Shown here piece after piece: positions 26-5,750 of a DNA stretch of 24,385 bases. Both the position numbers and the translations under genes were made by a program. The stretch is from a virus, in IMG/VR virus record IMGVR_UViG_3300017996_000017, positions 1 through 24,385 of that record; one strand, 5' to 3'. Below the pieces are notes generated by a model, which did not search any database, was not told the origin of the DNA, and worked only from the letters and a program-made list of their open reading frames with translations. Each line of letters begins with the position of its first letter. Position 1 is the first letter of the stretch.

Positions 26-376
26 ATGAACCAAATAGCAAAACAAGGAAATCGCGTACCTCAGCCACCCAGCCAAGGCGAAGAAACTTTCGCCTTTCAC
101 TGTAAGGTCAACAAACTCAGCCCCACGCGCGAGTACCCGTTCCACGAAACCCGCAAGTGGCGCATCGATTTTGCGTGGCCAGATCTGAAATTCGCCGTCG
201 AAGTGGAATCAAGCGTGCACCGTATCCGGTCGCGCTTCGCCAGTGACCTCGACAAATACAACGCGATGTCCATGGCCGGCTGGAAGCTCCTGCGCTACAC
301 GCGGAAGATGATCGAGAGCGGCCAGGCCATCAACGAAGTGCTTGAGGCGCTAGCTCAGCTAGAAAGGAAAGGTTGA
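26..376 (+). CDS. PD-(D/E)XK-fold endonuclease (DUF559/VSR-like)
   Basis: A 116-residue protein resembling the small phage endonucleases of the DUF559/VSR-like superfamily. The visible nuclease core is E36, then D48 in WRIDFAWPD, then the E59-V-E61 pair in FAVEVES, followed by KYNAMSMAGWKLLRYT, the usual 'cut-and-join' helix and strand of this family. Family knowledge predicts metal-dependent DNA cleavage; the substrate cannot be read from sequence. In many relatives the EVE is followed by a glycine-rich turn; here it is SSVHRIRSR. The ATG has no clear Shine-Dalgarno, but ATG/TGA overlap at 26-29: the frame ending at TGA 27-29 is open to the window edge, so the start may be coupled to an upstream gene that is cut off. 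It lies 1.4 kb before terL, so a role in genome processing or packaging is possible, but that is inference. Confidence 0.72.
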   Translation: MNQIAKQGNRVPQPPSQGEETFAFHCKVNKLSPTREYPFHETRKWRIDFAWPDLKFAVEVESSVHRIRSRFASDLDKYNAMSMAGWKLLRYTRKMIESGQAINEVLEALAQLERKG

Positions 377-1740: not shown

Positions 1741-3411
1741 ATGGAAGATGTGATCGATGTCGCGCGGATCGAGGCAGACGACGAGTACCGTTTTGCGCTT
1801 CGCTACCGCATGATCACCGACCTCTTCTGGTTGACGAAATATGTGCTCGGCTACGACAAGGTGACGGAGCATGATCACCGCGTCGTGGCCGATCACTTCG
1901 TCAAAAAGGATCCCACGCGCTCGATCGACCATCAAGACACGCGGCGCCGGCGCATCCTGCTGCTGCCGCGAAAAACTTTCAAAACCACCTTCAACATCGC
2001 CGACTCTGTGCAGTGGATCCTCGGCTTTCCCGACGTGGCCATCATGGTGATGACGGCAAGCAACTCCGACGACTCCCCGCTGGCCGACGCTTTCGTGACC
2101 GAAGTCGCGGAGCACTTTGTCTGCATCGAGGGCCAGCCCAAAAAGCCGCTTCATCTATGTTTTCCCGAGCACGTCATCACGAAGCGGCCAAAGAACGGCG
2201 TATTTCACGATTTCATCTCGCCGGCGCGCACCAAGTACCGTCGCGATCCAACTGTGACAGGCGTCTCGATCGAGCAGAGCCTCTCGGGGTGGCACCCGGA
2301 CATCATCAAGAGCGAGGACGTGCAGGACAATCGCAACTCGCAGACCGCCTACGCTCTGAAAAAAGTTCGCACCAACTTTTACATCAACCTCAAAATGCTC
2401 GGCGAGACGGGATTCCTCGACATCACGGGCACGCGCTACGGGCCGATGGATCTCTACGGCGACCTCATGCAGAAGTCCGACGACAATACCATCGTGCTTT
2501 GGAAGCCGGCCTACATCCGGAAGCCACACGCGATGAAGGTCGACGACGACTTATTGACCGTCGACGATGTGATCATGCAATTCCCGCAGCAACTCTCCTG
2601 GCCATTTTTGAGAAGTGAGAAGATCCTCGACGAAAGCAGCTTCTGGACGCAATATATGAACGTCGCCGAGGGCAATTTCAAACCCACCTTCCCGATTGAC
2701 CGGCTCAACGCAGCCAAAGTGAAAGACGAACACTCGGAACACGAGGGCAAGGTTCACATCTGCTGGCGTTTCGAGTACGCGGAGTGTAAAAACTCAGCCG
2801 GCGCCGCCGGCATCGAGCACGAAGGGCGCATGACAATCGTCGACATCGCCCGCGGGATCTACACGCCCACCGCGCTCGCGACCAGATTCGTCGGCATGGC
2901 CAAGCGATGGAATTGCCACAGCGTCGAAGTCGAGGATACGCCTGGCGCCGAAAGCATGGTCACTCACATTCGCAACGAAGCGATCGAGCAGGACTGGCGG
3001 ATCCAGATCACCTGGAGCCCCTACCTGCAGGATGAGACAGCCAGGCAGTTGAAGATCAAAACGGCCGAGCCTCACCTTATGGCCGGCCGACTGCTTTTTG
3101 CCGACGGGATCAGCAATGTGCAGGAGGCGTTCCGGCAGCTCTATCACTTCGGCATGGTCGAGGAGAGCGAAGTCGCGAACGTAATCTCGCGCGTGGCTGG
3201 TAAACTGCCCGCGTCGATCGCGAGCGACGAGCTCGCGGATCTCGATGAGGAGCAGCTCACCAACTACATCGAGCGCGACGCCTACGATCGCGTGTACGGC
3301 CGCGGCCAGTATGCCGCGATCGAACCTGCGCCTGATTTTGAAATATATGATTTTGTACCGAACCGGGCACCCGCCGACCTGGACGACATCATGCCAGGCC
3401 TGTCCGGATAA
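1741..3411 (+). CDS. terL: Terminase large subunit
   Basis: 556 residues, the usual length for a phage packaging motor (ATPase plus nuclease). The N-terminal ATPase carries a deviant Walker A, PRKTFKTT (residues 76-83), preceded by a hydrophobic strand RILLL. It resembles the HFKST-type P-loops of many terminases in which the glycine before Lys is replaced by an aromatic residue. WHPDIIKSED (184-193) fits the Walker B region with the acidic pair E192/D193, followed by the Q/N-rich DVQDNRNSQ. The C-terminal RNase H-like nuclease is suggested by TIVDIARG (D368), SVEVEDTPG (E396/E398) and LLFADG (D454). It would dock on the portal, whose gene follows after one small gene. The ribosome-binding site is weak, so translation is probably coupled to the upstream gene. 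Confidence 0.9.
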   Translation: MEDVIDVARIEADDEYRFALRYRMITDLFWLTKYVLGYDKVTEHDHRVVADHFVKKDPTRSIDHQDTRRRRILLLPRKTFKTTFNIADSVQWILGFPDVAIMVMTASNSDDSPLADAFVTEVAEHFVCIEGQPKKPLHLCFPEHVITKRPKNGVFHDFISPARTKYRRDPTVTGVSIEQSLSGWHPDIIKSEDVQDNRNSQTAYALKKVRTNFYINLKMLGETGFLDITGTRYGPMDLYGDLMQKSDDNTIVLWKPAYIRKPHAMKVDDDLLTVDDVIMQFPQQLSWPFLRSEKILDESSFWTQYMNVAEGNFKPTFPIDRLNAAKVKDEHSEHEGKVHICWRFEYAECKNSAGAAGIEHEGRMTIVDIARGIYTPTALATRFVGMAKRWNCHSVEVEDTPGAESMVTHIRNEAIEQDWRIQITWSPYLQDETARQLKIKTAEPHLMAGRLLFADGISNVQEAFRQLYHFGMVEESEVANVISRVAGKLPASIASDELADLDEEQLTNYIERDAYDRVYGRGQYAAIEPAPDFEIYDFVPNRAPADLDDIMPGLSG

Positions 3412-3420
3412 AGGAGAAAG

Positions 3421-3612
3421 ATGCCAGCGCCGATCTTGAAATATTTCGCGTTTAACCACCTGCCGCAGAAGCTGCAGGAAGTCTCCGAACCGATTGCGCT
3501 GATCGCCCAGGCGATGGACACTTGCCTGCCCGACGGCGCTGAAAAATCCGCAGGTCTGCGGAAACTGCTCGAAGCAAAAGACTGCTTCGTGAGAGCGAGG
3601 CTCGACGCATGA
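3421..3612 (+). CDS. Acb2/Tad1 hairpin-domain family protein (predicted anti-CBASS cyclic-nucleotide sponge)
   Basis: 63 residues. The layout is that of the Acb2/Tad1 hairpin family: an N-terminal aromatic strand KYFAFNHLP (7-15), a first helix QKLQEVSEPIALIAQAMDT (16-34), a CLPDGAEKS turn (35-43), and a second helix GLRKLLEAKDCFVRARL (45-61). Family members such as Acb2 of phage PaMx33 and T4 Vs.4 form hexamers that sequester cyclic di- or trinucleotides and block CBASS effector activation. Many short phage proteins have the same HLP...LPDG.EK..ALRKLLEAKD..VRA signature, and not all have been tested. It has an excellent AAAGGAG site, starts 9 bases after terL, and its TGA overlaps the portal ATG (ATGA, 3609-3612), so it would be made late with the structural proteins. 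Assignment is by motif recall, not by search. Confidence 0.68.
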   Translation: MPAPILKYFAFNHLPQKLQEVSEPIALIAQAMDTCLPDGAEKSAGLRKLLEAKDCFVRARLDA

Positions 3613-5750
3613 CAGTACTCAAAGACGAAGTAGTTGGCAGCCAGCGCATCGAGAAAAACGATGTTGAAGTGGTGGGGCCGAAGCTCGATCCCAAATACAC
3701 CGACGACGGCGCCGTGCAGCTCACGATTCAAGACGCCAGGCGCGCGCAAACTTTCCTGGACCAGAAGCAGTGGAACCTCTACTGGCGCGAGAGCGATGTG
3801 CTCTACCAGGCACCGCGCACAAACTCGACCTTCGACGGCTCGACCGTGGCGCGCGCGAATATCTCGCGGTTCACCGTAGCCAAGCACGTCAACAGCCTGG
3901 TACCGGCGATGAAGTCGGGGATCTTCTACGAAATGCCGCCCTTCGTCATTCGTCCCAGGCCTGCGACCAGCCAGACGACCGCGCGCGCGAAAACCGCGCT
4001 CTATGGCGCACTCATGGACGATTGCGGATTCGAAAATCTGGCGGAGGACGCGCTCGAATCGATGACGTGCTTCGGCACTGTGATCGTCAAGCCTGGCTGG
4101 CGCCGGGACGTGAAGAAAAAGAAAATTCGCCGGCCGCGCGCCGCGCCGATCCGCAAGACGCTGCCCTTCGGCGGCGAACTTGTCGTGCACACCCGCGAGA
4201 GCGATGAGATCGTCAAAACCGACGCCGAGGTTGTCGAGGAGGGCATGACGTTCGAGCCCCGCGAGCTGGGGAGCGTGCTGATCGATCCGACCTGGAAGGG
4301 AAAGAACGAGCTGCACAAAACGGCGAAATATGTGATCTACGTCGACTACCCGACCTTCAAGGATCTCGACGGGCTGCGCGAACAGCAGGTCTTCGATGAA
4401 GATGGCAAACAGATCGGCGGCTTCGACATTCCGCCCGCAGAGGATCTGAAAGATTACTTTTTTTCACACGAGCAAAATGCGGCCACGCCGAGCCAGGTGC
4501 AGCAGAACCAGGGCGGCCAGAATTGGGCAATCCATCACGCACAGTCGCCAGACGAGCCTGCGAGCGACGATCCGCTCCTGCGCCCGATTCAGATGCTTGA
4601 GCGTTGGGATCCAACTTACGTTTACACCGTGCTACGGCCCGACGGCGGCGATCGCGGCGTCCTCATTCGCAAGGAAGAGCACGGGCTGCCCTTCATTCCC
4701 GCCTTCGCCGCAAACTTTTGGAACATTCCGAACGCCGGCTACGGCATCGGAGTCGGCCGCTTGGCCGGCAGCGATCAGCGCATCGAGAAGGGAATGGTCG
4801 ATGCCCTGCTCGACATGCTGAGCTACGCCGTGAACCAGACCTACGTGCGCGACCGCGGCGCCAACGTGCCAACACAACAGATCCGCATGCGTCTCGGCGG
4901 CATCGTCGACGTAGACACGAAGCCAGGGCAAAAGGTTTCAGACGTGTTCGGCATCATCGAGTCCCCGAAACCGCCGGCTGAGATCTTTCCGATCCTACAG
5001 AACGCGGCGCAGGACGCGGAGACGACGACGGGCGCAGATCAGGCCTTCAACCAGGGCAGCCTGCCCGGCAAGGGCAGCTCCGCGGCGCGCACCGCTACCG
5101 GCGCCGGCGGCATCATCGCCGCCAACGCGGCGAAGATCCAGGGGCCGGTCGGTCACTTCGTGCAGGGAGTACTGCTGCCATTCATCGAGCTCATGGATCA
5201 CTTCGTCAAGGACCGCATGAGCCCGAGCCGGATCCGCGAGACGCTGAGCAACGACCTGGCCACGGCGTTCGATCTCGACGCGCAGAACTTTTACGAGTCT
5301 GAGGATCGCTTCGAGTGCCTGGCTGGCGCGCACCTGGCTGCGAAAAAAGCCATGGCGCAGGCGTTGCCGCTCATGGTGCAGATCTTCGAGAATCAGCCGC
5401 TGATTCAGCAGCTCAACGCGCTCGGCTGGATGGTCGACGTGAAGCAGCTGCTCGAGATGTTCATGGAAGTGAGTGAATGGAAAAATGCTCGCGAGCTGAT
5501 TCGCCCCATGAACAAACAGGAGCAACAGAAGTACCAGCAAAACAATCCAGGCGTGCAGCGCGTGCAGGGACAGATCGCGGCGATCGGCGCGCGGCACCAG
5601 GCGAAGGCCGCGGAGATCGACCAGCAGAACGAAGCCGACCTGGCAAAGAGCCTGATCGGGAACGCCAGCGACGAGGCGGCGCTATTCGACGAGCGTCGCT
5701 GGGACCGCATGGCCGACAACCAAAGCGAATTCGCGCCACAAGGAGCGTAA
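3609..5750 (+). CDS. Portal protein (P22-like, podovirus type)
   Basis: 713 residues, close to the length of P22-type portals. The protein forms the dodecameric ring through which TerL pumps DNA and to which the tail attaches. The sequence shows the family layout: a charged N-terminal region, the segment AKHVNSLVPAMKSGIFYEMPPF (about 91-112), a wing region rich in charged residues (about 165-330), then LPFIPAFAANFWNIP (360-374), GYGIGVGRLAGSDQRIEKG (377-395), a long helix through 415, PGQKVSDVFGI (439-449), and ETTTGADQAFNQG...ARTATG (471-498), which matches the conserved TG(V/A)...RTA(T)G element of portals. The C-terminal 180 residues are helical and Gln/Ala-rich, as expected for the barrel. 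The 4-base overlap with the upstream gene suggests coupling. Confidence 0.88.
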   Translation: MTVLKDEVVGSQRIEKNDVEVVGPKLDPKYTDDGAVQLTIQDARRAQTFLDQKQWNLYWRESDVLYQAPRTNSTFDGSTVARANISRFTVAKHVNSLVPAMKSGIFYEMPPFVIRPRPATSQTTARAKTALYGALMDDCGFENLAEDALESMTCFGTVIVKPGWRRDVKKKKIRRPRAAPIRKTLPFGGELVVHTRESDEIVKTDAEVVEEGMTFEPRELGSVLIDPTWKGKNELHKTAKYVIYVDYPTFKDLDGLREQQVFDEDGKQIGGFDIPPAEDLKDYFFSHEQNAATPSQVQQNQGGQNWAIHHAQSPDEPASDDPLLRPIQMLERWDPTYVYTVLRPDGGDRGVLIRKEEHGLPFIPAFAANFWNIPNAGYGIGVGRLAGSDQRIEKGMVDALLDMLSYAVNQTYVRDRGANVPTQQIRMRLGGIVDVDTKPGQKVSDVFGIIESPKPPAEIFPILQNAAQDAETTTGADQAFNQGSLPGKGSSAARTATGAGGIIAANAAKIQGPVGHFVQGVLLPFIELMDHFVKDRMSPSRIRETLSNDLATAFDLDAQNFYESEDRFECLAGAHLAAKKAMAQALPLMVQIFENQPLIQQLNALGWMVDVKQLLEMFMEVSEWKNARELIRPMNKQEQQKYQQNNPGVQRVQGQIAAIGARHQAKAAEIDQQNEADLAKSLIGNASDEAALFDERRWDRMADNQSEFAPQGA

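Follow-up and report, generated by a model that had tools for sequence, protein, structure and literature searches.

What is the 63-residue protein encoded between the terminase large subunit (terL) and portal genes of this virus, and what could it do during infection? The window analysed here is the whole stretch of 24,385 bases from a virus record; megablast against 50,697 phage records left it unmatched. A sequence-only reading had taken the small protein for an Acb2-like anti-CBASS candidate.

The locus and its predicted protein

In the ORF list, the 63-aa ORF ran from ATG to TGA at 3421-3612 on the plus strand. Its ATG was 9 nt downstream of the terL stop, and its stop shared the ATGA at 3609-3612 with the start codon of the portal ORF. 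These coordinates, together with the matches of the two neighbours to phrog_38 and PF23899, agreed with the earlier description of an ORF wedged between terL and portal and coupled to portal by ATGA. The features of the locus are as follows.

1741 to 3411, plus strand: terminase large subunit, upstream neighbour, 556 aa (phrog_38, E 1.5e-27)
3413 to 3416, plus strand: GGAG, likely ribosome-binding site, 4 nt 5′ of the ATG (read from the letters)
3421 to 3612, plus strand: gene for the 63-aa hairpin protein, distant Acb2/Tad1-hairpin relative (ORF, PHROG, AlphaFold model, BFVD, hhalign, BLASTP)
3451 to 3465, plus strand: residues 11-15, F-N-H-L-P loop preceding helix 2 (model)
3466 to 3525, plus strand: helix 2, residues 16-35 (model)
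3526 to 3549, plus strand: LPDGAEKS joining the two long helices, residues 36-43 (alignment, model, hhalign)
3538 to 3606, plus strand: helix 3, residues 40-62, including RKLLEAKD (47-54) and R58 (alignment, model)
3609 to 3612, plus strand: ATGA overlap of the hairpin-gene stop and the portal start (ORF list)
3609 to 5750, plus strand: portal, downstream neighbour, 713 aa (PF23899 SU10_portal, E 1.7e-10; PHROG head-tail adaptor and portal families)

A 116-aa ORF at window positions 26-376, which precedes the packaging genes, matched phrog_503 (1.1e-25), with DUF559 just under its cut-off; it possibly encodes a small endonuclease-like protein.

The AlphaFold model of the 63-aa protein (pLDDT 95.6, pTM 0.80) contained helices at residues 4-9, 16-35 and 40-62. 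The motif order that had been pointed out from the letters, HLP, a helix, LPDGAEKS and a helix with LRKLLEAKD..VRA, was present as claimed. The 'aromatic strand' described with it was not reproduced in the model, which showed a short helix (residues 4-9) and a loop, and no strands. The predicted layout, one short helix followed by two long ones, resembled that of the Acb2 protomer as described in PMC12043709. A fold search of BFVD was also carried out (best 50 of 110 matches). The first six matches resembled kin, with 38-49% identity, and 11 of the 15 in rows 7-21 were named Acb2/Tad1 hairpin domain-containing protein. The match at rank 7 had a probability of 1.00, a TM of 0.74 and an E value of 0.044, while the E values of those named Acb2/Tad1 in rows 7-21 ranged from 0.04 to 1.4, some with an rmsd of about 10 Å.

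Relationship to the Acb2/Tad1 hairpin superfamily

The window family was represented by hand-chosen alignments. A1 held the window protein and 45 of 80 viral loci, and A5 held the window protein, 12 of 80 viral loci, 42 of 80 genome loci and 5 phage records (60 rows). The canonical Acb2 alignment, A2, had 33 rows including Vs.4; p26 was named among canonical Acb2. The sequence-only reading had suggested a search against the Acb2/Tad1 hairpin entry of Pfam, PF24729. The window protein gave no match to it up to E 10, leaving the curated cut-off unreached, and was not filed as Acb2; T4 Vs.4, used as a control, matched at 7e-20. The entry was weakly matched by 13 of the 60 family rows at E ≤ 10 (best 0.0036), and the next Pfam family by 5. 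Neither the window protein nor its family profiles matched the solved Acb2 chains of the PDB in a sequence search, BLASTP of the window protein against Vs.4 gave no match, and hhalign found nothing when A1 and A3, the close alignments, were compared with Acb2. The comparison of A5 with A2 gave nothing either, being at the level of noise, as 141 of 300 column-permuted controls scored as high. Two other candidates were set aside as probable chance, the Gp22 phage chain of PDB 8jaj (E 0.005-0.006) and Occludin_ELL, a weak match of 5 of the 60 family rows. Residues 426-471 of 8jaj chain a matched the family profile over the HLP helix and the turn, a likely chance match.

A link was found through an intermediate family, phrog_1454, which was matched by the window protein (0.003) as well as by Vs.4 (7e-4). 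At E ≤ 1, it was matched by 50 of the 60 window-family rows (best 1.7e-5). Lactococcus phage 1706 orf70 (phrog_1454 2e-26; PF24729 7.5e-16) and Microbacterium phage ISF9 gp33 (phrog_1454 9e-19; PF24729 2e-13) both exceeded the PF24729 cut-off, these E values being for one record. A relative of ISF9 gp33 in Microbacterium phage Wolfstar carries the name 'cyclic oligonucleotide sequestering protein'. Fourteen collected intermediates of this YHxP family, which has members in Lactococcus phage 1706 (orf70), Gordonia phage Anon (gp46) and Paenibacillus phages, formed alignment A4, and all of them matched PF24729 at E ≤ 10 (best 1.9e-27). By hhalign, A5 matched A4 (92.1%, E 6.2e-7) with window residues 20-59 in register, and A4 matched A2 (97.2%, E 3.1e-11). 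Column permutation was used as the control because the set of unrelated natural families, two in number, was too small. The trimmed score of A5-A4 was 37.9 and was reached by 0 of 300 permuted controls (maximum 18.9; reversed 7.6); that of A4-A2 was 56.3, again reached by 0 of 300 (maximum 17.9).

Pairwise similarities were also measured. In single BLASTP comparisons, the window protein matched Gordonia phage Anon gp46 at 2e-7 and phage ScoobyDoobyDoo gp210 at 4e-6, with shuffle Z values of 11.4 and 8.5, respectively. None of 1000 shuffles reached the score of the 2e-7 pair, whose partner is a PF24729 member. The shuffle Z was at least 4.6 for 11 of the 14 A4 rows and at most 1.2 for the other three, and its median over the 33 A2 rows was −0.1. 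Homology of the window family to the Acb2/Tad1 hairpin superfamily, by way of the intermediates, is well supported by these comparisons of sequences and profiles. Because PF24729 was unmatched by the window protein and weak in its relatives, the protein is a distant branch of this superfamily and not canonical Acb2. The kinship that had been proposed stands at the profile level, through the intermediates (hhalign and BLASTP), and is favoured by the predicted fold.

When the window model was searched against the PDB with Foldseek and VIA-align, Acb2 chains were absent from the lists, and the fold matches were weak, of many kinds and none significant. As a control, a canonical Acb2 model (locus L090) found 8h2x, 8h2j and 7uq2 at ranks 1-8. 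Given that the canonical model finds the solved Acb2 structures and the window model misses them, the window protein appears to be more distant from canonical Acb2 of solved structure than from the intermediates. The occurrence of the intermediates was surveyed as well. At 1e-6, phrog_1454 was found in 0 of 149 genomes from the phylum of genome G009. At 0.001, PF24729 was found in 1 of 396 genomes from that phylum (under the cut-off) and in 9 of 398 from the phylum of genome G001. Scans of viral contigs with the proteins of phages DelRio, 1706 and ISF9 gave zero matches or one identical match each. In Gordonia phage ChisanaKitsune, the gene for gp20 (L240:195-410), an intermediate-family gene matching PF24729, was directly 3′ of the portal gene.

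The window protein was then compared with its named relatives. It shares with the YHxP intermediates a significant profile similarity, several pairwise similarities, a P-x-G-x-E-K-S-like turn and a similar size. It differs in lacking the PF24729 match found in 14 of 14 sampled intermediates and in having R58, where most A4 rows have A; one intermediate, L237, has 5 extra residues in the stretch from the H-x-P loop to the turn. Acb2 homolog 43 (PDB 9ptq, 76 aa, 6 chains) reads LPEGREKS...KLEEA where the window protein reads LPDGAEKS...KLLEA. This pair had a Z of 4.7 with 0 of 1000 shuffles as high, and 42 of the 60 family rows had Z ≥ 4, but the window-family profile did not match the chain. 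With Acb2 proper (T4 Vs.4, Pseudomonas phage p26; PF24729), the predicted protomer layout and, by a two-step register, the C-terminal helix are alike, whereas direct matches to Pfam, the solved chains and the canonical profile are missing and the window family has a core motif, LPDGxEKSxGLRKLLEAKDCFVR, that sets it apart.

PMC10097602 describes Vs.4 as hexameric and as having three sites for cGAMP, every one of them located between two chains; the contacts to cGAMP are Y8, H11, K23, R79 and F82, and the interface includes L29, A66, A73 and A77. In the two-step hhalign register, R58 of the window protein fell on the contact R79, while G45, A52 and F56 fell on A66, A73 and A77, which places small residues at two of the interface positions. 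Other contacts were changed, with S22 at the place of K23 and, by gapless extension of the register, L61 at that of F82. H13 was near Vs.4 H11, and F11 appears, by motif and outside the hhalign range, to sit roughly where Y8 sits, an aromatic residue in both. In a motif-anchored set of 130 distinct sequences, R58 was kept in 129, G45 in 126, A52 in 130 and H13 in 127; a Ruegeria phage relative had F in place of R58. The invariance of residues 47-54 was partly built in, since the patterns that collected the loci included RKLLEAKD, D[GS][AP]EKSAG[LM] or window-protein peptides. Five phage-record relatives found by BLAST varied within residues 47-54, and four of the five retained R58. This residue pattern would be compatible with an Acb2-like assembly that has an altered pocket.

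A candidate sponge: spread, conservation and neighbourhood

The window family, which is conserved but has diverged within the Acb2/Tad1 hairpin superfamily, probably acts as a sponge that binds an immune signal made of nucleotides. Its helical hairpins would assemble, several at a time, into an oligomer, and this oligomer would hold the signal so that the effector stays off. The signal would most likely come from CBASS or type III CRISPR, as a cyclic oligonucleotide, and less likely be an ADP-ribose signal of Thoeris. Translated together with portal after terL, the protein would be made late.

The window protein fell in phrog_1761 (5e-29) and phrog_5120 (7e-24), both function-unknown PHROGs. 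By tblastn at E ≤ 10, relatives were present in 370 of 50,697 phage records, with 311 spanning at least 80% of the query. Pattern scans found at least 592 relatives in at least 599 viral stretches and 196 relatives in 277 genome stretches, whose record titles included Pantoea, Streptomyces, Stenomitos, Leptolinea, Lacicoccus and Bdellovibrionaceae. Moreover, 25 plasmid records matched the family (E ≤ 0.001). Judging from genus names, we take the family records to belong to Pseudomonadota, Actinomycetota, cyanobacteria, Chloroflexota and others. Among the matches listed (60 + 60 rows), relatives with a name were called 'hypothetical' or 'uncharacterised', with two exceptions, H35, called 'endopeptidase Rz', and H114, where 'structural protein' stands next to 'hypothetical protein'. 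In Brevibacterium phages H102-H104, the matching stretch was 243 bp compared with 192 bp in the sister phages H93 and H94, and, unlike in H93 and H94, it overlapped features named 'repeated sequence in phage genome'.

Mean column identity was 78% in the 46-row alignment of the window family. The median dN/dS was 0.25 over 1,359 non-independent pairs with 0.1 < pS < 0.65, from 155 of 161 sequences (130 distinct) that were also anchored on the core motif. The 370 matching records and this dN/dS value indicate that the 63-aa ORF is not a chance ORF. Compared with contig L004 over 51 codons, the window protein showed 80% identity with a pS of 0.88 at synonymous sites, which looks like constraint rather than recent transfer. 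The small protein encoded by L004 and four contigs nearly identical to it (L007, L008, L010 and L011) was 79% identical to that of the window, against 22% for the portal and 23% for the major head protein; terL was 29% identical in the two L004-type contigs carrying part of it. The hairpin gene in these five contigs was located 13 bp 3′ of portal, not 5′.

Such strong conservation seems unusual in a counter-defence protein. It would suit a hairpin-superfamily descendant that has lost immune-signal binding and performs a constant late job, for instance binding a conserved small metabolite or some host factor, or contributing to head or lysis assembly, an alternative that we regard as credible yet unlikely. 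The neighbours of the gene bear on both sides of this alternative. From 160 loci, 2 were dropped for an in-frame stop and 24 as near copies, leaving 132 upstream and 132 downstream ORFs. These were called by length alone, and 88 + 88 of them were hand-picked, many of those dropped being short or on the opposite strand. Among the 25 families listed of 109 upstream (88 ORFs) were Rz-like spanins, terminase, portal, head-tail adaptor, head morphogenesis and endolysin; among the 25 listed of 143 downstream (88 ORFs) were terminase, scaffold, head protease, portal and HNH. The next ORF was on the same strand in 97 of 132 loci, and in 46 this same-strand ORF began at −20 to +30 nt. In single phages, the hairpin gene was found by head connector genes, between minor tail and lysin genes, or after an ORF adjoining thymidylate synthase.

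Late modules were thus frequent around the hairpin gene, which speaks for a constant late job, while the slot was not fixed. The late location proposed from the window alone is supported as a frequent one by the neighbour families listed, with genes for terminase, portal, head and lysis functions among them; a constant place beside terL and portal was not seen in the 88 + 88 ORFs, whose families varied, nor in the related contigs with the gene 3′ of portal. Because its neighbours and its position differ between loci, a structural role as a small packaging component was discarded as the leading explanation. Against a constant late job, no fixed partner was seen, the commonest neighbour PHROG among the families listed accounting for 6 of 88 ORFs upstream and 2 of 88 downstream. 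The gene lay on the other side of portal in the five near-identical contigs, and most phage records carried no recognisable copy.

The sponge reading can be extended to explain conservation and location together. The family would then be a large, multi-phylum and slowly changing sponge branch, directed by a remodelled pocket at one invariant immune signal and often serving as a late-module antidote co-made with the triggers of immunity; we hold this extended version as rather doubtful. Triggers made alongside the antidote could be, for example, the CBASS-activating terS/terL RNA of staphylococcal phages, and in the window the hairpin gene would be read from one transcript with terL. Late expression had been called unexpected for such an inhibitor, although with a timing that could fit. 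According to PMC10686824, terS/terL-derived RNA activates a staphylococcal CBASS cyclase, and a late antidote is therefore not odd.

Ligand class, origin and fused relatives

If the window family is a sponge, its ligand could also be a Thoeris-type ADP-ribose signal instead of cyclic oligonucleotides, which we consider improbable. Tad1 binds gcADPR, as stated in PMC12043709, and its C-terminal helical hairpin was weakly reached in the PDB by the intermediate profile (best E 0.03). However, the same profile fitted the 'Acb2 homolog 43' chain (3.8e-9) and Vs.4 (1.8e-4) better. Moreover, the N-terminal beta-sheet domain described for Tad1 in the same source, whose solved chains have 123-138 aa, is absent from the strand-free window model. 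Convergence of an unrelated helical hairpin on the Acb2 likeness is very improbable. In its favour, hairpins of this helical type are widespread, fold matches in the PDB were weak and of many kinds, and direct comparison with canonical Acb2 was at noise; but the in-register profile match beat the permuted and reversed controls, the BLASTP match at 2e-7 to a PF24729 member withstood 1000 shuffles, and PF24729 was touched by more relatives (13 of 60) than any other Pfam family.

With a sponge as the preferred reading, the window protein can be set by description beside Acb4 of phage SPO1, a widespread phage sponge to which it would be alike by mechanism and unlike in assembly, Acb4 being a reported tetramer (PMC11722364). 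If the family is sponge-like, the superfamily would reach phages, prophages and plasmids across several phyla, hundreds of 'hypothetical' genes would gain a testable role, and the conservation would point to a single fixed ligand. The PDB entry 'Acb2 homolog 43' hints at surveys of Acb2 homologues by other groups, in which the window branch may be included. Print accounts were searched for 9ptq, PF24729, phrog 1761, phrog 5120 and the motifs, and none was found; one review says 'Acb2 homologs'.

Several relatives were longer than the window protein. At L155:2089-2490, a crAss001_48-related domain (PF21825, 2.1e-13) followed the family member as a C-terminal fusion, and the member at L076:4001-4507 was extended by about 105 residues at its C-terminus, with zero Pfam matches. 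In BFVD, A0A6G6XYP8 of Ochrobactrum phage vB_OspP_OH (122 aa, named Anti-TRAP domain-containing) matched the hairpin over 58 columns with 48% identity, a possible fusion of the hairpin with another domain.
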